Origin: Bacteroidota bacterium
GTDB lineage: Bacteria; Bacteroidota; Bacteroidia; CAILMK01; JAAYUY01
DNA length: 55,643 nucleotides
Direction: 5' to 3'
NCBI GenBank assembly: GCA_018698135.1
Contig: JABINZ010000251.1
Location: 1-55,643 of the forward strand
Shown here: in pieces, positions 10,373 to 34,779 of the stretch
Layout of the letters: the number at the start of each line of letters is the position of its first letter
How positions within the stretch are numbered: the first letter of the stretch is position 1
Position numbers and translations under genes: made by a program
Notes under the pieces: model-generated
What the model was told of the DNA's origin: nothing
Database searches by the model: none
What the model saw: only the letters and a program-made list of their open reading frames with translations

Positions 10373-13063
10373 GTGCCAGTTCGATTAAAAAAAATATTAT
10401 TTCTGTCATTGCCAATTATTGCAATTCTACTTAGCAGTTGTCTTGCCATACAGGATACAGGAGCCGCCAGATTTTTTCACAATGTAACAGCCCGATACAA
10501 TATCTATTTTAACGCCCACGAGCGTTATTTGACTGTTGTTGAACAAACTGAGGAAAATTACATTGACGATTACAATCTAATTTTAAATGTTTACCGCTTT
10601 CCCGATGATGCAATGTCGAAGTCAAATGCGTCTGATGCCGATGAAATTATACGGAAGTGTTCTAAAATATTGGATAAACATAAAATAAGCAATTGGATTG
10701 ATGACAGTTATTACCTCATTGCCCGAGCTTATTTTTACAAAGGAGATTATTTTACCGCCATTGAAACATTTCAGTATATAATAAGCGAATACGAAAACTC
10801 CAATCTTGCCTTCGAATCCATGGTGTGGTTGGCCAAGTGCAATTATCAACTGGGCAAGTTTGATCAATCAACTGCTTTGGTTTCACAAATAAAAAGTATG
10901 CAAGGGCTTCCCGGAAAGCTCACAAAAGAACTTCGTTTGTTGGAAGCCTATTTAAATATTAATCAGAAAGATTATTTATCAGCCATAAAAAATCTCGAAG
11001 AAGCAATTTCTATTGAAAACAAGAAAGATTATAAAACAAGATATACTTTCATACTTGCTCAACTGTATCAATACTCTAACAATTTTGAACCTGCCATTTC
11101 TTTTTATGAAAAAGTAATCAATAAGAACCCACCATACGACATGGCTTTCAATGCCAAAATTGAGGTTTCACGTTGTCATGAGGTGGTTGATGAGCGAACA
11201 GCTCGCTCCATTAAGGCTCGCTTATATAAAATGTTGAAAGATGATAAAAACATTCAATATCTGGATCAAATATATTTCGAAATTGCACTGGTTGATTTAA
11301 AAATTGGCAATACAAAAGAAGCTGAAGAAAATTTAAAACTAAGTCTTAGGTATAACAAAAGCAACGATAACCAAAAAGCATTTGCCTATCTGAAATTAGC
11401 TGAATTTTATTTTGATAAGCCAAACTATTTGCTCTCAAAAGCATATTACGACAGTTCATCCACATTTTTGAGCGAAGACTTTGCTGGCTACGCTGAGCTG
11501 AAAGTAACCAGCATTGTTCTTAGTGAACTGGTAAAACACCTGGTTATTGTTGAAACAGAAGATAGTCTGCTTTATCTGGCAGGCCTTCCAACAAAGTCAA
11601 GAGACAGCTTGATTGATATTGTATGGCAAGCAGAAGAGCAAGCCAAGCGAGACATTGAGCTTGCAGAACAGCAGAAAAAAGTTGCTGAGGAACAAGAGAT
11701 GCGCTACAACAGAGATGTGATGATGGGGCAAAATCGAGGGCTAATGCAACCACCGGGAGTTCCTGGTAGCCTTTCTGCTTCCAACAAGTGGTATTTCTAT
11801 AACAACTCATCCATTGAACTTGGCAAGTCGGAGTTTGCTGTTAAATGGGGAAAGAGAAAGCTTGAAGACAACTGGCGTAGGAAAAAGAAACTAGGCTCAA
11901 TTTCAGAAGAGGGCTTAGCTCAAGACTCGGCTGCCACAGAAGAGGTTATTGAAGCGGTACTTTCTGAAGATGAAAAGAAGTTTATTAGCGAGCAGTTAAA
12001 AAACATTCCCAAGCCAAAACAAAAATACTACATGGACATTCCGTTTACTGAGAGCCAGGTAGTTGCATCGCATAAGCGAATTGTGGAGGCATTGAAAAAA
12101 ATTGGTGATATTTATTTAGAACAGCTGTCCGACACTTCAAATTCGTCTGCATCTTATGAAAAGCTTTTAGGAAGATATCCGAGTTCTAAATATGATGCTC
12201 AAACCCATTACACCCTTTTCAACATTTATAACCCAAGCACTCAGTCAAATAAAAAACAAGCTCATAAGGATTCCATTTTAACAAAATATCCGAATAGCGA
12301 TTATGCTATATTGGTTAAAGATCCTACCTATTTCACACGCATGGCTACCATTAAAAACAAGGAAATCACCCTACTATACGACCAAAGCTACCAGTACTAT
12401 TTAGATGGAGATTGTGATTTGTTAGCGCAAAACGTTAGCAGTAGCAATAAAAATTATCCTGGAAATTCAAAAAACGATCATTTTGAATATCTTGGTGTAC
12501 TTTGTTCAGGTAAGAACAAACCCAAAAAAGACTTTATCCAAAACTTAATTGATTTTCAGAACAATAGCAAAAACGATGAGTTAAAAGAACATGCAAACAA
12601 TTTGGTTAAATATTTAAATGGAGAATTTGAACACATAGAGAAAGCAGAAGTTTCTACAGAAAAGAAAGTTGTTATTGACTCCTTCCTGATAAAAACACCT
12701 TACAAACAAGGACCACAGAGCCCTCATTATTTTGTTTTGTTTTTCGATAGCAGAAAGGTTAATACTGAAAACTTAAAAACAGCTTTTTCCGATTACAATA
12801 CCCAGTATTATAGCTTGGAAAAGTTGAATATTAATACTGTTGTTTTTGATAAAAATATAATGCTTTTACTGGTACAACAATTTGAAAATGGCAGCTCTGC
12901 TCAAAAGTATTACAAAAGCATTCAAAGCGATCAGGATTTTCTCGAAAAAATCAAAAACAGAAAACCTCAAATTGCGGTTATTCATCAGGAAAATTTTGGT
13001 GTCTTGCTGAAGGAAAAGGATGCAGCTGCTTATATTGATTATTTTAAAAAGTTTTACAAGTAA
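10373..13063 (+). CDS. sprE: SprE/PorW-type lipoprotein of the type IX secretion system
   Basis: SprE (PorW) is a TPR-containing lipoprotein needed for T9SS function and gliding in Bacteroidota. The product (896 residues from this start) has a signal peptide ending in the lipobox 'LLSSC', then the family's characteristic 'FFHNVTARYNIYFNAHERYL', several TPR-like helical repeats in the first ~400 residues, a charged Gln/Glu-rich middle and a C-terminal globular part. I chose GTG at 10373 because it gives a standard n-region ('MPVRLKK') and lies after the inferred transcription start; the reading frame is open back to GTG 10334. T9SS cargo genes occur elsewhere in the window. Confidence 0.88.
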   Translation: MPVRLKKILFLSLPIIAILLSSCLAIQDTGAARFFHNVTARYNIYFNAHERYLTVVEQTEENYIDDYNLILNVYRFPDDAMSKSNASDADEIIRKCSKILDKHKISNWIDDSYYLIARAYFYKGDYFTAIETFQYIISEYENSNLAFESMVWLAKCNYQLGKFDQSTALVSQIKSMQGLPGKLTKELRLLEAYLNINQKDYLSAIKNLEEAISIENKKDYKTRYTFILAQLYQYSNNFEPAISFYEKVINKNPPYDMAFNAKIEVSRCHEVVDERTARSIKARLYKMLKDDKNIQYLDQIYFEIALVDLKIGNTKEAEENLKLSLRYNKSNDNQKAFAYLKLAEFYFDKPNYLLSKAYYDSSSTFLSEDFAGYAELKVTSIVLSELVKHLVIVETEDSLLYLAGLPTKSRDSLIDIVWQAEEQAKRDIELAEQQKKVAEEQEMRYNRDVMMGQNRGLMQPPGVPGSLSASNKWYFYNNSSIELGKSEFAVKWGKRKLEDNWRRKKKLGSISEEGLAQDSAATEEVIEAVLSEDEKKFISEQLKNIPKPKQKYYMDIPFTESQVVASHKRIVEALKKIGDIYLEQLSDTSNSSASYEKLLGRYPSSKYDAQTHYTLFNIYNPSTQSNKKQAHKDSILTKYPNSDYAILVKDPTYFTRMATIKNKEITLLYDQSYQYYLDGDCDLLAQNVSSSNKNYPGNSKNDHFEYLGVLCSGKNKPKKDFIQNLIDFQNNSKNDELKEHANNLVKYLNGEFEHIEKAEVSTEKKVVIDSFLIKTPYKQGPQSPHYFVLFFDSRKVNTENLKTAFSDYNTQYYSLEKLNINTVVFDKNIMLLLVQQFENGSSAQKYYKSIQSDQDFLEKIKNRKPQIAVIHQENFGVLLKEKDAAAYIDYFKKFYK

Positions 13064-13132
13064 AAATCGCCCTTTTTTTGCCTCAATATCTGGCAGTTAA
13101 TAATATTCCTTAAGCATACATTATTTTTAAAG

Positions 13133-13140
13133 TAATTTTG
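13133..13140 (+). promoter_or_regulatory. -7 promoter box (TAATTTTG) for the penicillin-binding protein gene
   Basis: TAATTTTG fits TAnnTTTG and lies 31 bases before the start codon, in a 108-base gap after sprE. I cannot see a convincing -33 element, so this is a modest prediction. Confidence 0.35.
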
Positions 13141-13171
13141 TACATCGGAATATATAAATGCAACAACACAG

Positions 13172-15391
13172 ATGAAATCAGCAAAAAAGAATAAAAAAGG
13201 CAATTACAAAACCTTCCTTAAATGGTTTTGGGGTTCTGTTGTCTTGGTGTTCACACTTTTTGTTTTATTAATAATCGGCATTATCGCGGGTGTATTCAAA
13301 AAGTTGCCCGATGCTCGTCAATTGGAAAACCCAGAAACAACATTGGCTACAGAGATCTACTCTTCTGATGGGGTATTGCTCGGTAAGTTTTTCAATGAAA
13401 ACAGGTCGAAAGTAGCCTATGATGAAATTAGCCCTAATGTTTATAATGCCTTAATTGCAACTGAAGATGTTCGCTTTGAAGATCATTCAGGTATCGATCC
13501 TCGGGGAACATTGGCTATACCCTATTACATTATACGTGGCAAAAAGAAAGGTGCCAGCACAATTTCGCAACAATTGGCTAAAAACCTGTTTGGTCGAAAT
13601 CAATTTAATACTCTACCGAAAAAAATCATTCAAAAACTCAAGGAATGGATTATCGCCATTCGACTGGAACGCTATTATACTAAGCAGGAAATAATAAATA
13701 TGTACCTCAACAAGGTTGATTTTGGTAGTAATTCCTGGGGTATTAAGGCTGCATCAAAAACATATTTTAATAAATTACCAGATGCGCTTAACGTACAAGA
13801 ATCTGCAACAATAATTGGAGTCTTGAAAGCTGTTACTGCCTATAATCCTTATCTGAATCCCGAACGCTCATTAAATAGGAGAAATGTGGTTTTGGGCCAA
13901 ATGTATAAATACGGCTATATCAAAACACAAGAGGAGTTCGACTCGTTAGTTGCTCTTCCCATTAAACTTGATTATAAAGTAGAAAGTCATAATCAGGGGA
14001 TGGCGCGATACTTCAGGGAGTTTTTGCGAATGGAGCTTAATGAATGGAGTAAAAGTGAAAATATCGATTTATATGCCAGTGGATTGAAAATTCACACCAC
14101 TATTGATAGCCGAATGCAAACATATGCTGAAGCAGCCACTCGGGAACATCTGACCGAACTTCAGGAGCTCTTTTTCAAGCATTGGGACGGACGAAAGAAT
14201 GCACCATTCAGCAAAATAAGCGAAAAGCAAATTGAGTCAATCATGACGCGTGCAGTTAAAAACAGCGATCGCTACAGAGCCTTGAAAAGGGGTGGCAAAA
14301 GCTGGGAAGAAATACAGGAAGATTTCCAAATTAAAAGGAAAATGAAATTGTTTTCCTATAAAGGCGACATTGAAAAAGAAATGTCACCTTACGATTCTGT
14401 CTATTATTACAAATACTTCTTGCATCCTGGTTTTATGGCCATGGATACCAAAAGCGGCCAAATTAAGGCTTGGGTTGGGGGGATTGATTACAAATACTTT
14501 AAATATGATCATGTAAACAAAAGAGCGAAAAGGCAGGTAGGGTCAACCTTCAAACCTTTTGTTTATACTGTTGGAATAATGGAGGGTTATTCTCCATGTT
14601 TGAAAGTGCCCAATGTACCTGTAATTTTTCCTGACTTCAATAATTGGAGGCCCCGAAACTCGGACGGAGAATATGGCGAAATTATGACCCTAAATGAAGG
14701 CATGTCAAAATCTGTAAACTGCATGACTGCATGGGTGATGAAGCAAGTTGGCCCAGAAGCCGTTTTGGATTTGGTTGCAAAAATGGGAATCGACACCAGC
14801 GATATGGACCCTTATCCATCAATTTGCCTGGGAACTCCGGATGTATCCGTTTTTGAAATGGTGGGAGCTTTTAATACCTATGGTAACAATGGTGTATGGG
14901 TAGAGCCTACTTTTATTAGCCGAATTGAAGACAAAAATGGCAATACAATCAAAGAGTATGTTGCCCGCGAAGTTCCTGTTTTAAAAAACACCCACAACTT
15001 TGTGATGCTAGACATGCTTCAATCTGTAACCCGAGGCTGGGGAACTGCCACTCGACTGCGATATCGCTACAATTTTACCAATCAAATAGGAGGAAAAACA
15101 GGTACAACTCAAAACAACTCGGATGGATGGTTTATTGGAACAACTCCTGAAATAACAGCTGGCTGCTGGGTTGGAGCTGAAGACCGATCCGTTCATTTCA
15201 GAAGAACTGACTATGGACAAGGTGCTAGTATGGCCTTGCCAATATGGGCCTATTTTATGAAAAAAGTGTATGCCGATTCCACGCTTGGATATAAGCAAAG
15301 CGATTTTGAAATACCTGAAGAAAAGCTTCCAGTTGAGCTCGATTGTTCGAATTATGAAGCTGATGTTGAACCAAACGCATTGCAGGAATAA
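13172..15391 (+). CDS. Class A penicillin-binding protein (PBP1A type)
   Basis: This bifunctional enzyme polymerises and crosslinks peptidoglycan. The 739 residues have a short cytoplasmic tail, one membrane helix (~22-44), a GT51 glycosyltransferase domain with 'ATEDVRFEDHSGID' carrying the catalytic Glu, and a transpeptidase domain. The transpeptidase active-site motifs are complete: STFK (Ser458), SVN in 'SKSVNCM', and KTG at 642-644. The end of the gene is immediately followed by the uvrC start codon (15391/15392), so the two are almost certainly co-transcribed. Confidence 0.95.
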   Translation: MKSAKKNKKGNYKTFLKWFWGSVVLVFTLFVLLIIGIIAGVFKKLPDARQLENPETTLATEIYSSDGVLLGKFFNENRSKVAYDEISPNVYNALIATEDVRFEDHSGIDPRGTLAIPYYIIRGKKKGASTISQQLAKNLFGRNQFNTLPKKIIQKLKEWIIAIRLERYYTKQEIINMYLNKVDFGSNSWGIKAASKTYFNKLPDALNVQESATIIGVLKAVTAYNPYLNPERSLNRRNVVLGQMYKYGYIKTQEEFDSLVALPIKLDYKVESHNQGMARYFREFLRMELNEWSKSENIDLYASGLKIHTTIDSRMQTYAEAATREHLTELQELFFKHWDGRKNAPFSKISEKQIESIMTRAVKNSDRYRALKRGGKSWEEIQEDFQIKRKMKLFSYKGDIEKEMSPYDSVYYYKYFLHPGFMAMDTKSGQIKAWVGGIDYKYFKYDHVNKRAKRQVGSTFKPFVYTVGIMEGYSPCLKVPNVPVIFPDFNNWRPRNSDGEYGEIMTLNEGMSKSVNCMTAWVMKQVGPEAVLDLVAKMGIDTSDMDPYPSICLGTPDVSVFEMVGAFNTYGNNGVWVEPTFISRIEDKNGNTIKEYVAREVPVLKNTHNFVMLDMLQSVTRGWGTATRLRYRYNFTNQIGGKTGTTQNNSDGWFIGTTPEITAGCWVGAEDRSVHFRRTDYGQGASMALPIWAYFMKKVYADSTLGYKQSDFEIPEEKLPVELDCSNYEADVEPNALQE

Positions 15392-27801: not shown

Positions 27802-29412
27802 TCAAAACTTTTTGGACAGACGGAAATAGACATGATTCTCGTTGTAGGTGGTATTAATACCTAATTCATAATTCAATGAGAAATACATCTTTTGATAAAC
27901 TTTCCAGTCTATGCTAAGTTCAACATAGTTTTGAATTAATTTTTGTTCATAACGATTATACAAACCATTCAGGTAGCGATAGTTGAGTGCCAAAAACAGC
28001 TTGTCGCTTGCAAGGCTTTTTTGAAGTCGCAATGCATAAATGCCTGCACTCATATATGTGGTTTGCAAATAGGTGGCTGTTAGACTGGCGTTTAAATCCC
28101 ACAGTGGAAGTTTGTAATAATTAAAAAATGCAATCAGATTATAAGCTGGCTGTGGATCTGTTTTTCGAAAACGATAACCCCCGCTGAAACCCATGGAAAG
28201 CTTTTGGCTTGGCCTGTAATACAGCCTTAATCGATAACCTTGGCGCACTTCAGAGTCAATAATGCTGTCGAGTAGGTTTTTGAATGTTTCGTAATACAAC
28301 ACGTTTTTTCGTGCATCATAAGATGCCGACAGGCTTAGTTTTGGTGTAAAACGATATCGCGTTCTAAAATAAAAACTCGTGAGGCTCACCGTGTTTTGTG
28401 ACTCTCCGTTAAGCATTTTGTACAAGTCTGCTTCTAATGAGCCAAAAACGTATAACTTTTTAAAGTTACTTCTATGTTGCAGATAGGCAAATCTGCGATC
28501 GATTTCTTTATTATTCCGTTGCTCAATAAATGCAAAAGTGTTTCGGATTGTATTCTTTGGTTTGTCTATTTTCCAGGCCAGATAAGCACCATATTGCATC
28601 ATATTGAAATTAAAGCTATAGTCTGAATAATCAGGACGGGATCCGATAAAACCACCGACATTAACAGCTTTAAAATTCTTTTGCATTTGGAGACCATCAA
28701 TAGCGCCAACATTCGATAATTCAGAATTGATTTTTCGTCCAATTAGCAAATAGCTTTCTTTTGAAAAATCATAGCGTAAGTTTAAATTGTAAATTTTCAA
28801 ACCATTGTAAATGTTGTCTTTAATTTCGTTCCACTCAGCTGTTTTATGACTGAAATTGATATAGGTTTCGGCTGATAGTTTACTTTTGGAAATATTCATT
28901 TTCTTGAGGGCAAGGCTATATCTCATGCGCATAAAACCAGAATTATTCTCACTCGAAAAACTTGAATAGGAAGCTGCACTCACATGACCCAATATTTTGC
29001 TTTTGGGCTTTCTTTTTTCATCTGTTGATTGTATGTTTTTTGATTCAATTGCCAGAATAGTGTCTCCTACTACATCAGCAGGGGGTTTGGTCTCTTCTTT
29101 TTTGATGGATATTTTTGCATATAACAAATCCGAAATATTCAATTGGCCTGAAAACAGATACTCTCCTACACATGAAATCGAGGATATACTATTAACTTTA
29201 AGAACAGCTTTAAAGATTTGATCTTCTTTTTTAAAAAGAGTGTCTCCAACTAAAATTCCATCCGTTGTTTTGAATTTTACATACACATTCTGTGAGCTTA
29301 TATAGGAAACGCGCCCTTCTATATATTCTATTTTGTTCTGGCCTTTTACGGCTAAAAAAAACAGGAGAAATAAAATGCTTGAAAATATAATTTTCATAAT
29401 ATTCTTTTTCAA
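27802..29412 (-). CDS. Outer-membrane beta-barrel, probable porin partner of the multihaem cytochromes
   Basis: The 536-residue product has a signal peptide (ending 'AVKGQ'), a small N-terminal beta domain (~25-105, 'VEGRV'-like strands resembling an SH3-type fold), a low-complexity linker (~110-140) and a C-terminal region (~145-536) of about 18-20 amphipathic strands, ending in 'VYFRLSKKF' with the C-terminal Phe of outer-membrane barrels. It is the last gene of the multihaem operon, 2 bases after the 13-haem gene. By analogy with porin-cytochrome conduits (MtrB and similar) it may hold a cytochrome within the outer membrane. I see no direct similarity to MtrB; the role is from context. Confidence 0.6.
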   Translation of the reverse strand: MKKNIMKIIFSSILFLLFFLAVKGQNKIEYIEGRVSYISSQNVYVKFKTTDGILVGDTLFKKEDQIFKAVLKVNSISSISCVGEYLFSGQLNISDLLYAKISIKKEETKPPADVVGDTILAIESKNIQSTDEKRKPKSKILGHVSAASYSSFSSENNSGFMRMRYSLALKKMNISKSKLSAETYINFSHKTAEWNEIKDNIYNGLKIYNLNLRYDFSKESYLLIGRKINSELSNVGAIDGLQMQKNFKAVNVGGFIGSRPDYSDYSFNFNMMQYGAYLAWKIDKPKNTIRNTFAFIEQRNNKEIDRRFAYLQHRSNFKKLYVFGSLEADLYKMLNGESQNTVSLTSFYFRTRYRFTPKLSLSASYDARKNVLYYETFKNLLDSIIDSEVRQGYRLRLYYRPSQKLSMGFSGGYRFRKTDPQPAYNLIAFFNYYKLPLWDLNASLTATYLQTTYMSAGIYALRLQKSLASDKLFLALNYRYLNGLYNRYEQKLIQNYVELSIDWKVYQKMYFSLNYELGINTTYNENHVYFRLSKKF

Positions 29413-29414
29413 AC

Positions 29415-30452
29415 TTAATCGGCAGTTCCTCTGGGGTGACAGTCAAAACAGGCTATGCTGTTATATAGGTAGTCAGGTTCTTCGTCATGCTCTTTATCCA
29501 TTTCCGATTTATTATGATCATGACAATCAATGCAGGTATAAACCTGATAATTTGATGTATTTGTATGGCAGTCGACACAGCTGTTCCACTCTCCATTATG
29601 TTTGCCGCTAAAAATTGGAAAATATTTGTTATCATGATCAAATGTTGCCGGCTTCCATCCGGGATTTGTCGTATGGCATTGTGAGCAATCAGTACTAAAA
29701 CCCGATCCTGAGTGGTTGGGATTGTTGGTTGCATTAAAATCAGACTCGTGACAACTAAAACAATCGGTTGAAATATTTGAATAATTGCCCGCCACATGAC
29801 ACAAATTACAATCTTGCAAATTGTGCCCCTGAGTTAAAGGAAAGAACACATGATTAAAACCTGAAGAACCCCATTCAAAAGCACCAATTCGATGGCATTC
29901 TGAACATTCAGTTGAAAATCCTGCAGTAGTATGGTTCGGTTCAGAAGTTGAATAATAATCCTGTTGATGACAATCCATACATTCAATTCCCAATGGCTCA
30001 AAATCCAATAAAGAGGCTGATTTATGACAATCATAACAATCGGCAAGTGCATGGGCTCCCATTAAAGGAAATCGGCTTTGATAGTGTATTTCAGAAATAT
30101 TGCTAACAATCCATGAAAAAGGACTGTGGCATCTTTCACAATCAGTTCCGAGGCTTGCATTATGCATGTCTGTATGGCAATCCATACAGTCCTCGCCAGC
30201 CTCGCCAAAAATCAGGGTTGGATGGCAGAGCTTGCAATCAGTTTCAACATGCTGCCCTTCCAATGGCAATGCTGTTGTGTTGTGGTCAAAGGAATAGATT
30301 TCCTTATCCAGCTTCCACCCACCAGGGCTATGACAAACCGTACAACTGATTTTAAAGTTCTCTCCATGAGTTGGTTCTTCGGTTTTGAATCCTAGAATTA
30401 AAACAACCATTACCAATACTGATATTAGCGTAATTAATGACAATCTTCGCAT
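29415..30452 (-). CDS. 13-haem c-type cytochrome
   Basis: The 345-residue protein has an N-terminal hydrophobic signal or anchor (~5-22, 'LITLISVLVMVVLILGF') and 13 CxxCH haem-attachment motifs, the first being 'CTVCH' near residue 37 and the last 'CFDCH' at the very end. Haem density is about one per 26 residues. Four copies of a module 'FDH...F.L.G.H.....C..CH' give extra His that could be distal haem ligands. No lipobox is present, so it is probably periplasmic or membrane-tethered. Its start lies within the last codons of the 20-haem gene. It is likely the periplasmic wire of the operon. Confidence 0.9.
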   Translation of the reverse strand: MRRLSLITLISVLVMVVLILGFKTEEPTHGENFKISCTVCHSPGGWKLDKEIYSFDHNTTALPLEGQHVETDCKLCHPTLIFGEAGEDCMDCHTDMHNASLGTDCERCHSPFSWIVSNISEIHYQSRFPLMGAHALADCYDCHKSASLLDFEPLGIECMDCHQQDYYSTSEPNHTTAGFSTECSECHRIGAFEWGSSGFNHVFFPLTQGHNLQDCNLCHVAGNYSNISTDCFSCHESDFNATNNPNHSGSGFSTDCSQCHTTNPGWKPATFDHDNKYFPIFSGKHNGEWNSCVDCHTNTSNYQVYTCIDCHDHNKSEMDKEHDEEPDYLYNSIACFDCHPRGTAD

Positions 30453-32023
30453 CTGTAATCCTTTATTTTATATAATGTATACGTATTCGATCCATTCTGA
30501 ACATCTTTATGACACTTAGCACAAGATACATTTATGTGTTTCCCGTCTAGCTTAAAGGCCGTATTATCGTGATTAAATTTTCCGGCTTGCCAATTAACAA
30601 AGCCATGACAACGGGCACAATCAGTAATATCATTTTTATCAAATTGTTTGTAATGAACATCTGTGTGGCATTGATCACAATTCGTAGACAATGATGAAAA
30701 TTGTTGATTATAATTTCCTCCACCAGAAGACTTAAAATGACATGCCCTGCAGCTTTGATTTTTATGTGCTCCTAAAAGATCAAATTCTGTTTTCGTATGG
30801 TCAAAGGTTACTGCTTTCCACATGTTTTCATTGTGACAAGAGGTGCAGGTCTGTTTAGGATAATATTTTTCACTTATGTAGGTTTTATGAATATTGTCGT
30901 GACAGTCCACACAACTTTTTCCAATATTTCTGAAACTCCAGTCTTTCCCTTTTTTATGACATTCTAGACAAGGAGTTGCTATATGCGCACCTTTTAAAGG
31001 GAAAATTGATTTGTTATGTTGATCTTGGGTGTAGTAAGTTGTCTGAAAGCCATCCAAACGATGACAGTCTTTACAATCAGGCGATTTTCCATTTTTCACC
31101 AACTGTCCTTTATGCTCATCTGCATGGCAATCTTTACAATAATTGTGTCTTAACGGATTGGTATACGCTCCCTTGTGGCATGTTTTGCAATCAACATGCA
31201 AATGCTTGCCTTGTAAAGCAAAATTTGTTTTGCTATGATCAAAATCATTCTCCCCTTTAATCATGTGAAAAGACTCTTCTGTGTGGCATTTCTTACAATC
31301 CTGACCAAATTTATTATCGTGTTGATCTTTATGGCAATTGGTGCAATTTCCAAACTCCACTCCCGAAAATACTTGAAAATCTTTGCCATTTCGTTTTTCA
31401 AGAGCGTGACACTTTACACATTCAACATCAATGTGCTTTCCAATAAGAGTGAACTCGGTTTGATCGTGTTTGAAATTTTTAGCTGATGTAAACTCGTCAA
31501 ATACATGGCATTCCAAACAATTATCTACTAGTGTTTTTTGATGGAAATCGTCATGGCACACAAGACAGCCCTGACCCAAGCCCATAAATGTTTTCCTCTT
31601 CTTTTCTTTTACCTTTTCTTCAATAACAAATTCTTTTTTATGACAGTCGACACATTTGTTCTTTGCATGAGCACCTTCCAGCTTATATCCAGTTAAACTG
31701 TGGTCAAATTTCTCTTCATCAAACTTGATGATTTGAAAGTTTTTCCCATGATGGTCGCTATGACATTTAATGCACTTTTCACTGGTAACCTCTTTTGAAG
31801 CATGATAACCAGACTTTTGCTCAATGCGTTGGTTAATATCTTTATGGCAGTCAAGACATTTGTTGTTTGAAACCCTTTTCCCCATGGTATGACATTCTGT
31901 ACAATTTCCCGTTCCTTCCAGATGGGCATGAGCTTCTGCCAGTTCTCCCGGGGATATAGGTGTTGACATTTTACACCCTACAAAAAGGAGCAATAACAAG
32001 CTATATAAATGGAAATGTTTCAT
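30434..32023 (-). CDS. 20-haem c-type cytochrome lipoprotein
   Basis: The 529-residue product starts with a lipoprotein signal (lipobox 'LFVGC', Cys17) and carries 20 CxxCH motifs; the last ('CEDCH') forms the final five residues. Six copies of the module F-x-H-x2-T-x-F-x-L-x-G-x-H-x5-CxxCH recur roughly every 60-90 residues. Lipid anchoring makes an outer-membrane location likely, on the periplasmic side or the cell surface. The start codon overlaps the stop of the FAD protein (TAATG), and the stop overlaps the next cytochrome start. It would pass electrons between the 13-haem protein, the barrel and outside partners; that order is inference. Confidence 0.92.
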   Translation of the reverse strand: MKHFHLYSLLLLLFVGCKMSTPISPGELAEAHAHLEGTGNCTECHTMGKRVSNNKCLDCHKDINQRIEQKSGYHASKEVTSEKCIKCHSDHHGKNFQIIKFDEEKFDHSLTGYKLEGAHAKNKCVDCHKKEFVIEEKVKEKKRKTFMGLGQGCLVCHDDFHQKTLVDNCLECHVFDEFTSAKNFKHDQTEFTLIGKHIDVECVKCHALEKRNGKDFQVFSGVEFGNCTNCHKDQHDNKFGQDCKKCHTEESFHMIKGENDFDHSKTNFALQGKHLHVDCKTCHKGAYTNPLRHNYCKDCHADEHKGQLVKNGKSPDCKDCHRLDGFQTTYYTQDQHNKSIFPLKGAHIATPCLECHKKGKDWSFRNIGKSCVDCHDNIHKTYISEKYYPKQTCTSCHNENMWKAVTFDHTKTEFDLLGAHKNQSCRACHFKSSGGGNYNQQFSSLSTNCDQCHTDVHYKQFDKNDITDCARCHGFVNWQAGKFNHDNTAFKLDGKHINVSCAKCHKDVQNGSNTYTLYKIKDYRCEDCH

Positions 32024-33357
32024 TAATTTTTTTCGTGCTTTAACAGGGCCTCTCCGAATTTTTTAGTGATCGTTATTCCTGCTTTTTTCAAAAACTCTGT
32101 TGGCAATTCACCTCCGGCAAAAATATAGACCAGGTCGTTTTTAATAAGCTTTTCTGAATCGTCTGAAGCAAGTACAATTTCAGATTTTTCAATGCCTTTT
32201 AAATTGGTTTTAAATTGAACATCAAGCTTATTGTTCTCAATAGCAGCTTTTATTAGGTCTCTGTTTTTAGGCTTTATCCTGCTAAATGTGTCATTTCTAT
32301 ACGAAAGAGTTACCCTGTTTTGATCTGCCAATAAAAGTGCTGATTCAACAGCAGAATCGCCACCACCAACAACCAATATGTCTTTATCTTTGATATCTTC
32401 AGGTTCCAAAAGACGATAAGCTACCTTTTCAGTGTTTTTACCCGGAACATTCAATTTTCGAGGAGTTCCCCTTCGCCCAATTGAAAGTAAAATATTAGCT
32501 GTAGTGATCTGTTGACCATCTAATGTTTCTATTTTGAAAAATCCATTCTCTTTTGAAATAGACTCAACTTTGGCATTTTCCCGAATGCTGATTTCGTTTT
32601 TCTCTAATACCTGATGCCACAAATTAAGTAATTCTGTCTTGCTTGTTTCAAATAACTTTACTTTCCCAAACAAAGGCAATTCCATAGGAGAGGTCATGAC
32701 TACTTTTGAGCGGGGAAAGGTAAAGACTGTTCCTCCCAATGTATTTTGATCGATTGTGAGGAAATTTAACTTGAGTTTTTTTGCCGTTAATGAGGCAGAA
32801 ATACCAGCAGGTCCTGCTCCAACAATTACAAGATCATAGTCGGCATTGGGATCTTTCTTAATTGCTTTTGAAATATTTTCAACGGCTTGTTTTCCTTGCT
32901 CAACTGCATTTTTAATAAGCCCCATACCTCCCAGCTCTCCGGCAATATAAATTCCTTTGACATTTGTTTCAAATGTTTGGTTAACATGAGGTAAATCCAC
33001 ACCTCTTTTTTCAGTGCCAATGCAAAGCGTAATTGCTTCTGTTGGGCAAGCATGGAAACAGGCACCGTGACCAATACATAAGGACGCATTTACAACTGTT
33101 GCTTTTCCATTTACAATACCTAAAATATCCTTTTCCGGACAGGCGGCAATGCAAGCTCCTGTTCGAATACAACTGTTTGGATCAACAACCGGGTGTAAAG
33201 AAACAGGCTCAAATAAACCTTCTTCTTTCGCAATCTTAATTTTCTCCTCTACTTTTCTTGAATCCTTTTTTTGCTTCCTTAAATAAAAAACAACAAGAAC
33301 AACACAAAAAACAGCAATAAAAGAATATATAAGCAGGTTTTCTAAAAGTATTTCCAT
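32023..33357 (-). CDS. Membrane-anchored ferredoxin-type iron-sulfur / FAD-NAD(P) oxidoreductase
   Basis: From this ATG the product has 444 residues: one N-terminal membrane helix ('NLLIYSFIAVFCVVLVVFYL') followed by a basic stretch that puts the rest in the cytoplasm, a two-motif ferredoxin domain, a short linker with 'GIYIAGELGGMGLIKNAV', then a thioredoxin-reductase-like domain with FAD-binding 'VIVGAGPAGISA' and NAD(P)-binding 'ILVVGGGDSAVES'. The redox CxxC of thioredoxin reductase is missing, so it is more like a ferredoxin-NAD(P) reductase. In both ferredoxin motifs the second Cys is replaced (Thr, His). The frame is open 27 bases further, overlapping the cytochrome b gene. It probably feeds the cytochromes. 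Confidence 0.85.
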   Translation of the reverse strand: MEILLENLLIYSFIAVFCVVLVVFYLRKQKKDSRKVEEKIKIAKEEGLFEPVSLHPVVDPNSCIRTGACIAACPEKDILGIVNGKATVVNASLCIGHGACFHACPTEAITLCIGTEKRGVDLPHVNQTFETNVKGIYIAGELGGMGLIKNAVEQGKQAVENISKAIKKDPNADYDLVIVGAGPAGISASLTAKKLKLNFLTIDQNTLGGTVFTFPRSKVVMTSPMELPLFGKVKLFETSKTELLNLWHQVLEKNEISIRENAKVESISKENGFFKIETLDGQQITTANILLSIGRRGTPRKLNVPGKNTEKVAYRLLEPEDIKDKDILVVGGGDSAVESALLLADQNRVTLSYRNDTFSRIKPKNRDLIKAAIENNKLDVQFKTNLKGIEKSEIVLASDDSEKLIKNDLVYIFAGGELPTEFLKKAGITITKKFGEALLKHEKN

Positions 33358-33361
33358 CTTA

Positions 33362-34231
33362 TTAAAATATCCACCTGTATCCAAAAGTTAACGTAACAGC
33401 AACATGTACGATCATAATTGCTAGCATTACCAGTGCAAAAGGAAGGTGCGCCACATGCCAATACTTAAAAAGGTTCTTCATGGTGTCGAGGCGCTCAATT
33501 CTTCTATGTAACGACAGTTCTGTTTTGACCAATTTAATTATCTTTTTCCTTTCAGTTGCCGGCATTTTACTTTTTCGTATCACCCGCCTAACTTCGGCTC
33601 TTGCTTTCCTGTCTGAACGATTTTGACTGAAGTAGCGAACAAATATGTTTTTGCGATATATTTCAACTTTCTTTTGCGTTGAATTGGCGATTATGCGACT
33701 ACTTTCTTCATTTAAAAACTGAGAAGCTGACAGTATACTGCTTGTTTGGTTTTTCATTTCAGATACTTCGTGCAGGCTCATTTCTCGACCTTCAATTGTT
33801 CTTGGTATTTGAATGTATATAAATCGCCCAATTATTCCGCTTAAAAACACAGCCACCATGCTCCAAAAACTAATCGAAACAATGCCTCCAAACTTGAAAG
33901 AGGTGTGAAACAAAACCATAATAGGGCCTAATGTGCAAAGGAAAATATGGAATTCAAGCCAATGCTTTAATAAGCCAAGACGAGATAATTTCCGCCATCT
34001 TTTACGCAACATATAAATACTAACACCAATTATCATTGCAACTGAGCCAAAAATACCCAATCCATGTCCAATGATTCCACTTGGCTTTAAACTTTCATAG
34101 TCGGAATGAAAAAACCTTTCAGAAATAGTTGTTTGATAATAGCTCATTCCAATATAGACCAAATAGATCAAGGTCAAAAAAACAATGGCAGAAAGTACTG
34201 CAATATAAAAATAATGCGCTTTTTGATTCAT
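33362..34231 (-). CDS. Multi-pass membrane protein, probable b-type cytochrome
   Basis: From this ATG the product has 289 residues with five or so membrane helices. Histidines placed like b-haem ligands occur in 'GIIGHGLGIFG', 'LKHWLEFHIFLCTLG', 'MVLFHTSF' and 'YWHVAHLPFALVMLAIMIVH'. Between the third and last helices is a long basic cytoplasmic loop (~140-240). It is the first gene of the multihaem operon and would link the cytoplasmic FAD protein, or the quinone pool, to the periplasmic haems. An in-frame ATG at 34273 exists, but the inferred transcription start (~34274) lies at it, so the ATG at 34231 is more likely. Confidence 0.75.
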   Translation of the reverse strand: MNQKAHYFYIAVLSAIVFLTLIYLVYIGMSYYQTTISERFFHSDYESLKPSGIIGHGLGIFGSVAMIIGVSIYMLRKRWRKLSRLGLLKHWLEFHIFLCTLGPIMVLFHTSFKFGGIVSISFWSMVAVFLSGIIGRFIYIQIPRTIEGREMSLHEVSEMKNQTSSILSASQFLNEESSRIIANSTQKKVEIYRKNIFVRYFSQNRSDRKARAEVRRVIRKSKMPATERKKIIKLVKTELSLHRRIERLDTMKNLFKYWHVAHLPFALVMLAIMIVHVAVTLTFGYRWIF

Positions 34232-34277
34232 AGTTGTTTTTACACTTAGAAAAGATTTGTGCAATTTAGACATTTAA

Positions 34278-34402: not shown

Positions 34403-34432
34403 AATAGCCTAATAGATATAAACTAGGCTATT
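34403..34432 (-). other. 9-bp hairpin at the 3' end of the small membrane protein gene
   Basis: AATAGCCTA (34403-34411) and TAGGCTATT (34424-34432) are perfect inverted arms with a 12-base loop; the second arm overlaps the gene's stop codon. It is in the right place to end transcription before the multihaem promoter, but no T tract follows on the minus strand, so a terminator role is only possible. Confidence 0.4.
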
Positions 34433-34779
34433 AAGAGAAACACAACAGATACGATAATAAGAAATGATGCAATTCGATGTGTCCATCTGAAAAAAGGAAT
34501 CCAAGGTTTTTCGAAACTTAGAAAGACTCCAGAAATCAACGCAAACAATATAGATGCGACTAACACCAAAGGTATTTCGTTTTCATTTAGCTGAAAAGCT
34601 GTCTCGTTAAAATACCTGAAAAACATAATAGATCCCCAAACAATTGCTCCGAGGGAAATTATTTTGTGTGCTCCAAATAGTATGGCATGAGGTGGGCGTC
34701 CTTTTTTGCTAAGCCAAATGCCACTAGAAATGGCTAATAAGAATGTTATTCCTAAAAAAATGACAGCTGTTTTTATCAT
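34423..34779 (-). CDS. Small four-helix membrane protein with conserved-looking His
   Basis: The 118-residue product is nearly all membrane (helices ~4-22, 33-55, 68-88, 97-117). His residues at helix ends ('PPHAILFGAHKIISLG', 'FFRWTHRIASFLII') could bind haem b, as in small cytochrome b561-like or DUF4405-type proteins; I have no motif to settle this. It lies 34 bases after the SRAP gene on the same strand and ~190 bases before the multihaem operon start. The operator and promoter between them suggest separate transcription, but a link in function is possible. Confidence 0.55.
   Translation of the reverse strand: MIKTAVIFLGITFLLAISSGIWLSKKGRPPHAILFGAHKIISLGAIVWGSIMFFRYFNETAFQLNENEIPLVLVASILFALISGVFLSFEKPWIPFFRWTHRIASFLIIVSVVFLLIA

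Follow-up and report, generated by a model that had tools for sequence, protein, structure and literature searches.

How does a bacterium of the phylum Bacteroidota come to carry five adjoining genes whose products could pass electrons through 33 c-type haems between cytoplasmic NAD(P)H and the cell surface, and is this a system of its own or a form of a known one? The genes, here called A to E, lie on the minus strand of contig JABINZ010000251.1 (assembly GCA_018698135.1), whose 55,643 nucleotides constitute the window. A first-pass annotation of this sequence had seen in them the parts of a trans-envelope electron conduit. Here, we find it probable that the operon encodes such a conduit, of the kind known as PCC3 and with its own inlet for electrons from NAD(P)H (or ferredoxin). 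This reading is supported by the conservation of the five genes, by the invariance of their haem ligands and by two regularities in haem number. We take them for an undescribed variant of this published kind, PCC3 itself being functionally unverified, and the first-pass interpretation is partly supported.

An artefact or a chance origin of the operon is ruled out by a gene order kept in dozens of genomes. In a sample of 296 Bacteroidota genomes, drawn regardless of their cytochromes, we identified 28 near-full-length homologues of A besides that of the window (34–55% identity), and A is followed by the multihaem genes of the system in 26 of the 28 neighbourhoods; in the two exceptions (loci L034 and L049), A stands almost alone. 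Scanning genomes with the A alignment returned at least 515 relatives, the best 80 of which belong to records titled Bacteroidota or its subgroups (with a few general titles and one Chlorobiota) and mostly show A-B-C-D-E on one strand. Because these 80 were chosen by their similarity to A, they are no measure of the reach of the system outside the phylum, while the recurrence of B to E among them constitutes separate evidence.

Altogether, A and C occur together in 99 loci, and A, B, C and E in 78 loci from many families of the phylum (L007 and L060, copies of one contig, are both included in the counts). B was at first seen in 95 of the 99 A+C loci, three of the other four hold it at the far end of the operon, and the final tally is 98, the remaining locus ending with its contig. 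E was recognised in 81 of the 99, several others being cut by contig or stretch ends. The genes thus stay together across the Bacteroidota, and homologues standing singly and apart, which the first-pass annotation had named as evidence to the contrary, are not what we found. Two gene orders prevail, A-(F)-B-C-D-E and A-(F)-C-D-E-B, where F denotes a TPR protein of about 200 residues that is absent from the window. In many relatives outside the class of the window, F sits between A and the next gene (e.g. L028:4895-5494 and L032:4603-5202), and it is possibly an assembly factor. The overlap of C with D measures 19 or 22 nt in 60 loci. The distance matrices of A, B and E correlate at r=0.93-0.96, and that of C with the others at r=0.79-0.80 (species relatedness not removed), suggesting that the gene set is largely co-inherited.

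The spread of the system is patchy: among 60 relatives of the genome of the window, full-length C was present only in two members of its own genus. Moreover, all five genes are present in a cultured type strain, Emticicia oligotrophica DSM 17448, on a 100-kb plasmid (pEMTOL02, L143:8899-21483), where a ResB/CcsA cytochrome c assembly gene immediately precedes them and a gene for a GW-domain protein follows; the C of this plasmid has 23 haems and its D 40. The patchy distribution, together with this plasmid copy, points to horizontal transfer. A plasmid search with C returned Emticicia only, and viral contigs gave no match to A alone and just three short partial relatives with the A alignment. 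On a 327-kb contig filed as viral (IMGVR_UViG_3300032240_001991, L141:7920-12031), a partial A relative stands beside a 729-aa protein and cytochromes with 4 and 7 haems; the contig either belongs to a large virus that carries electron-transfer genes or comes from a host and was misfiled. A separate cluster in L058 and L059, in which a distant A relative accompanies cytochromes of 10 and 3 haems and a protein distantly resembling B, is probably a paralogous electron-transfer system.

Within the window, the open reading frames (ORFs) bear out the first-pass annotation as to the place, strand and tight packing of the five genes (Table 1). A and B lie about 4 nt apart, B overlaps C by 1 nt and C overlaps D by 19 nt, and the gap between D and E is 2 or 17 nt, depending on the start of E. 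The ORF of A was listed as 33362-34273 and its conserved start is an internal ATG; residues of A are nevertheless numbered here from the ORF start at 34273. The total of 33 haem motifs is likewise exact, and C and D are the sole CxxCH-bearing ORFs of more than 60 codons in the window. Among the window proteins, B matches Fer4 and Pyr_redox in Pfam, C and D match cytochrome c7/c3 models, and A and E have no Pfam match.

Table 1. Positions of the five genes in the window and their predicted products
Gene	Predicted product	Position	Strand	Basis
A	Inner-membrane di-haem-b protein, PCC3-type inner-membrane protein	33362-34231	minus	ORF, hydropathy, alignment
B	Membrane-anchored ferredoxin/FAD/NAD(P) reductase	32023-33384 (conserved start ~33357)	minus	
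C	20-haem c-type cytochrome, c7/MtrA-like	30434-32023	minus	CxxCH count
D	13-haem cytochrome	29415-30452	minus	CxxCH count
E	Outer-membrane beta-barrel	27802-29412 (conserved start ~29397)	minus	AlphaFold2 model

The two cytochromes follow contrasting rules. Of the complete copies of C, 71 have 20 haems and 10, mainly from Saprospiraceae, have 23; the few other values reflect cut or mis-assigned ORFs. All 20 CxxCH motifs and 20 further, distal histidines are invariant in the alignment, so that every haem can be bis-histidine ligated, and the haem spacing is identical in the window and in L105, which come from two different genomes. By profile, C matches the Geobacter dodecahaem triheme-repeat cytochrome 3ov0 (5e-14) and chain 6r2q_A of the Mtr complex (8e-6). 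Its AlphaFold2 model reached a local confidence of 84.7 and a predicted template modelling score (pTM) of 0.43, a low value as for an elongated chain modelled without haems, and a Foldseek search of this haem-less, low-pTM model against the PDB gave no significant match. Cytochrome filaments extend by roughly 0.8 nm per haem, at which rate a chain of 20 would reach about 16 nm, comparable in magnitude to the periplasm. The first-pass annotation had called C a lipoprotein; the lipobox is real in the window, but it is not a family trait, since of 94 ORFs scored as C (some of these being mis-assigned D) only 8 have one by a loose regular expression.

D, on the other hand, ranges from 10 to 61 haems, and its haem number equals 3k+1 in 74 of 76 complete copies. 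Raw CxxCH counts give 1 modulo 3 in 59 of the 76, most of the exceptions being due to variant haem motifs, and the figure of 74 is reached once CX3CH and CX4CH are counted; as the copies share ancestry, it does not count independent events. The main departure is L137:2211-7049, where two proteins of 11 haems each seemingly take the place of D between C and the barrel. Short and long forms have in common an N-terminal haem spacing of 36-16-16-34-19-25, and this constant part is followed by triheme repeat units of about 75 residues, spaced ~35-15-25. In L039, units of a single protein are up to 99% alike, and L107 and L117 show echoes of whole blocks, four to five units long, which indicates that D grows by duplication of triheme blocks. 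At the DNA level, Tandem Repeats Finder detected no tandem arrays in the locus of the 61-haem D, though the protein repeats are clear.

How electrons would reach these cytochromes is suggested by A and B. SGXXG occurs in 106 of 106 homologues of A, two WX3HX13H motifs in 100 and two HX13H pairs in 105, and H109, H123, H273, H276 and H290 are invariant in a 26-member alignment. Hydropathy and alignment fit five transmembrane (TM) helices in about 300 residues, with a loop of about 100 residues joining TM4 and TM5. A probable b-type membrane protein, as first annotated, is what these features suggest. If the basic segments (R90-K91-R92 and the long TM4-TM5 loop) are placed inside, this loop would be cytoplasmic, H109 and H276 would lie at the cytoplasmic face and H123 and H290 at the periplasmic one, and the two pairs would hold two stacked b haems. 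An assignment of A to BcsF was rejected (E 0.0052; 16.7 bits against a cut-off of 56). Just upstream of A, at 34423-34779 on the minus strand, the window holds a 118-aa membrane ORF weakly similar to DUF4405, a model that also matches three members of the A family; this ORF is possibly an extra b-type protein.

B consists of one N-terminal TM helix, a basic stretch, two ferredoxin motifs and a thioredoxin-reductase-like FAD/NAD(P) unit, as expected from its first description as a membrane-anchored ferredoxin/FAD/NAD(P) reductase, and by the positive-inside rule it would face the cytoplasm. Its two Rossmann domains are of the thioredoxin-reductase/YpdA type. The scores stay well below the NCBIfam cut-off for YpdA (166 against 339.9 bits) and the cut-off for TRX_reduct (TrxB; 78.7 against 343.5), and a role as disulfide reductase was rejected because the flavoprotein part has no redox CXXC. 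The ferredoxin motifs of the window protein, CxxTxxCxxxCP and CxxHxxCxxxCP (~33010-33180), have the second cysteine replaced in each. Among 99 sequences, the main clade has Thr or Ser at this position of the first motif and His in the second (C-x-G-H-x-x-C-x3-CP in the homologues), and the clade with B at the operon end has a canonical first motif and keeps the His of the second. The clusters are possibly His-ligated or of the [3Fe-4S] type.

A partnership of A with a cytoplasmic flavoenzyme recurs outside the system. Relatives of A with about 250 residues, encoded on plasmids of Sphingobium, Methylophaga, Alteromonas and Spirosoma, keep the HX13H pairs, and three of the four keep SGXXG. In all four clusters opened, a gene for an FAD/NAD-binding or 2Fe-2S reductase stands directly upstream, and in three an annotated cytochrome stands directly downstream, the downstream gene of Spirosoma being unnamed. 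Considering that the reductase differs and the neighbour position is the same, electron exchange between a cytoplasmic flavoenzyme and A appears to be the most economical reading, and the exchange with an NAD(P)H-type reductase proposed at first sight is consistent with these data. These trios resemble the present system in placing an A-family protein beside an NAD(P)H flavoprotein, with a c3-type multihaem cytochrome downstream; they differ from it in the shorter inner-membrane protein, in a 2Fe-2S reductase of the FNR type, in having one small cytochrome, and in the absence of an annotated barrel. On the Alteromonas macleodii plasmid (L146:3974-12588), the A-family protein, the 2Fe-2S reductase and the c3 cytochrome adjoin NiFe-hydrogenase genes.

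E had been annotated as an outer-membrane barrel, and the AlphaFold2 model (mean predicted local distance difference test score 90, pTM 0.68) predicts one, with 22 strands from residue 139 on, preceded by a beta domain (residues 28-102) that is presumably periplasmic. Foldseek against the PDB returned generic barrels (ushers, TonB-dependent receptors, porins) and no family assignment, with MtrB (6r2q_B) at rank 34 (TMq 0.34). Twenty-two strands is the size of TonB-dependent receptors, the lumen of which holds a folded plug domain; a cytochrome-sized lumen in E, the lack of which would have told against a conduit, is therefore plausible.

Among published systems, PCC3 is the closest. It comprises a porin, an extracellular multihaem cytochrome (median 34 haems, up to 85), a periplasmic one (median 21 haems; 21, 24 or 27 in Gallionellaceae) and an inner-membrane protein, with no reductase listed, and its function was untested as of 2025 (PMC5566968, PMC10734462, PMC12442390). 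The features of A, including the position of SGXXG on TM4, are exactly those that He et al. 2017 described for the inner-membrane proteins of PCC3 and PCC4 (about 300 aa, five TM helices, SGXXG and two WX3HX13H; PMC5566968). Both systems have a low residue-per-haem ratio and a porin (here the predicted barrel), both have one cytochrome with a near-fixed haem number that changes in steps of three (21/24/27 there; 20/23 here, near those values without coinciding with them), and both have another, repeat-bearing one of widely varying number (10-85 there, 10-61 here). In contrast, the four conserved genes of PCC3 do not include a reductase, whereas the present loci in Bacteroidota have a dedicated one in B; D is set apart by its strict 3k+1 rule, and PCC3 porins have up to 42 predicted strands, against 22 in E. 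With B as an addition, we regard the present system as a variant of the PCC3 kind and not as PCC3 itself. The earlier impression that neither cytochrome nor the barrel resembles known conduits is accordingly not supported, and the view of the system as unlike them is right only in part, B being new relative to the published PCC3.

Other systems are more distant. Mtr, Mto and Pio likewise unite a barrel with multihaem cytochromes, and C has weak profile similarity to 6r2q_A, but C has twice the haems and the inner-membrane input is different. C reached 42.8 bits against a cut-off of 192.2 with the DmsE/MtrA model TIGR03508, which had no such match to the window D and none over the cut-off in the whole genome, and neither the Pfam search nor the rank of MtrB suggests an MtrB-type barrel. 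In OmbB-OmaB-OmcB (Pcc), 8 periplasmic and 12 outer haems compare with 20 and 13 in the window (20 or 23 and 10-61 in the family). Ferric reductases and NADPH oxidases hold two b haems on two HX13H pairs and draw on a cytoplasmic NAD(P)H-flavin donor, as proposed here for A and B; unlike in these, A of the window has no Pfam match, B combines Fe-S motifs with a thioredoxin-reductase-like rather than an FNR-type unit, and the acceptor would be a chain of cytochromes. The GSU1996-type triheme 'nanowire' and c7 cytochromes share iterated triheme c7-like units, and the structure most closely related to C by sequence profile is 3ov0, but D has 10-61 haems, a constant N-terminal part and an operon with barrel and reductase, and TIGR04257 stays far below its cut-off. 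Putative PCCs of unknown type, counted by gene organisation, have been reported in Bacteroidetes from a humic bog (PMC6344600), and undescribed Bacteroidota cytochromes with very many haems in activated sludge (PMC11495043). We found no description of the five-gene module or of its reductase, nor of the 3k+1 rule or the constant number of 20 haems, which is weak evidence of absence, as most subscription papers were outside the search.

From these observations, we infer complex formation, localisation, the order of the carriers, direction and acceptor as follows. On the cytoplasmic face of the inner membrane, to which it is anchored, B would take hydride from NAD(P)H onto FAD and pass single electrons via two Fe-S clusters to A, first to the haem b on the cytoplasmic side; the two stacked haems of A would conduct them to the periplasmic face, like the haem pair of ferric reductase and NADPH oxidase. 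C, as a rigid 20-haem chain, would bridge the periplasm, and the fixed width of this gap would account for a haem number that hardly varies. In the outer membrane, the 22-strand barrel E would hold D by its constant N-terminal part, and the triheme repeats of D would project outward, their length tuned in each lineage by gain or loss of three-haem blocks. Fe or Mn oxides, humics, electrodes or partner cells may be the acceptors, in the service of electron disposal or extracellular reduction. Net flow outward from NAD(P)H is most likely, because the likely outer donors are less reducing than NAD(P)H and the membrane potential favours an exit of electrons from the cell. A stronger version, in which a phylum-wide, horizontally mobile system draws directly on NAD(P)H or ferredoxin by way of a His-substituted Fe-S flavoenzyme, bypasses quinone and couples a fixed 20-haem ruler to a triheme nanowire growing by three haems, is tentative, and we give it somewhat less than even weight.

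Several points weigh against an outward conduit of the PCC3 kind. No sequence feature shows direction, and the kinship with PCC3 rests on motif and layout. D has neither a lipobox nor a recognised surface signal, and C, as a predicted lipoprotein in the window species, could sit on the outer membrane or the cell surface. The lumen of E is judged by strand count, from a model of the barrel by itself, and each ferredoxin motif of B lacks one cysteine, so that cluster type and potential are not fixed by the sequence. The genome of the window encodes two COX1 genes, no bd oxidase and a CcsA-type assembly, and haem-copper oxidases are about equally common in genomes with the module (28 of 28) and without it (38 of 40), such that they neither support nor exclude anaerobic respiration. 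The same genome also encodes a 7-CxxCH protein with a TPR-like C-terminal repeat region (G000:C192, ~12700-13350; L148) and a 4-CxxCH protein on C255 (L150).

The direction could be reversed, with D oxidising outer donors (Fe(II) minerals, Fe(0), partner cells or reduced humics) and electrons running via C and A to menaquinone, or via B to NAD(P)+. A host with two COX1 genes and no bd oxidase would suit such uptake, as would Emticicia, which has the complete module and is described as an aerobe. PCC3 itself is found in Fe(II) oxidisers, where it was proposed as an uptake route to quinone (PMC5566968). However, reduction of NAD(P)+ from Fe(II) would run uphill in potential and against the membrane potential, and a quinone route would not need B, which yet accompanies A and C in all loci but one; we therefore consider inward flow unlikely. 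The near universality of B also argues against A being a quinol-active cytochrome b fed mainly by the quinol pool, with B reduced to a regulator or a secondary inlet. For the inner-membrane protein of PCC3 and PCC4, He et al. propose quinone activity (PMC5566968), but no quinone site was identified in A, and in other clusters, too, A-family proteins lie next to NAD(P)H reductases, which leaves a quinol inlet rather improbable.

In a further alternative, the cytochromes would work inside the envelope, either storing electrons as a capacitor or supplying a periplasmic reductase, the barrel being an unrelated transporter. The low residue-per-haem ratio and the large haem numbers fit this idea, which has been voiced before (PMC10734462, PMC11495043). 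We deem it very unlikely, considering how regularly the barrel is recognised beside A and C, that no terminal reductase gene is constant in the operon (for which reason a periplasmic nitrite/nitrate-type module was rejected as well), and that D, which has as many as 61 haems, would not fit into the periplasm if extended.

Should the outward, NAD(P)H-fed conduit be the correct reading, extracellular electron transfer would be widespread in the Bacteroidota, usually seen as fermenters or aerobic polymer degraders, and its route would be fed by a reductase and not by quinol. The module is compact, a cultured type strain carries it on a plasmid, and its D proteins would form a natural series of wire lengths, from 10 to 61 haems by threes, for measuring conduction against length. 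It would also supply the PCC3 kind with a plausible partner in the cytoplasm and with a host in which it can be tested.

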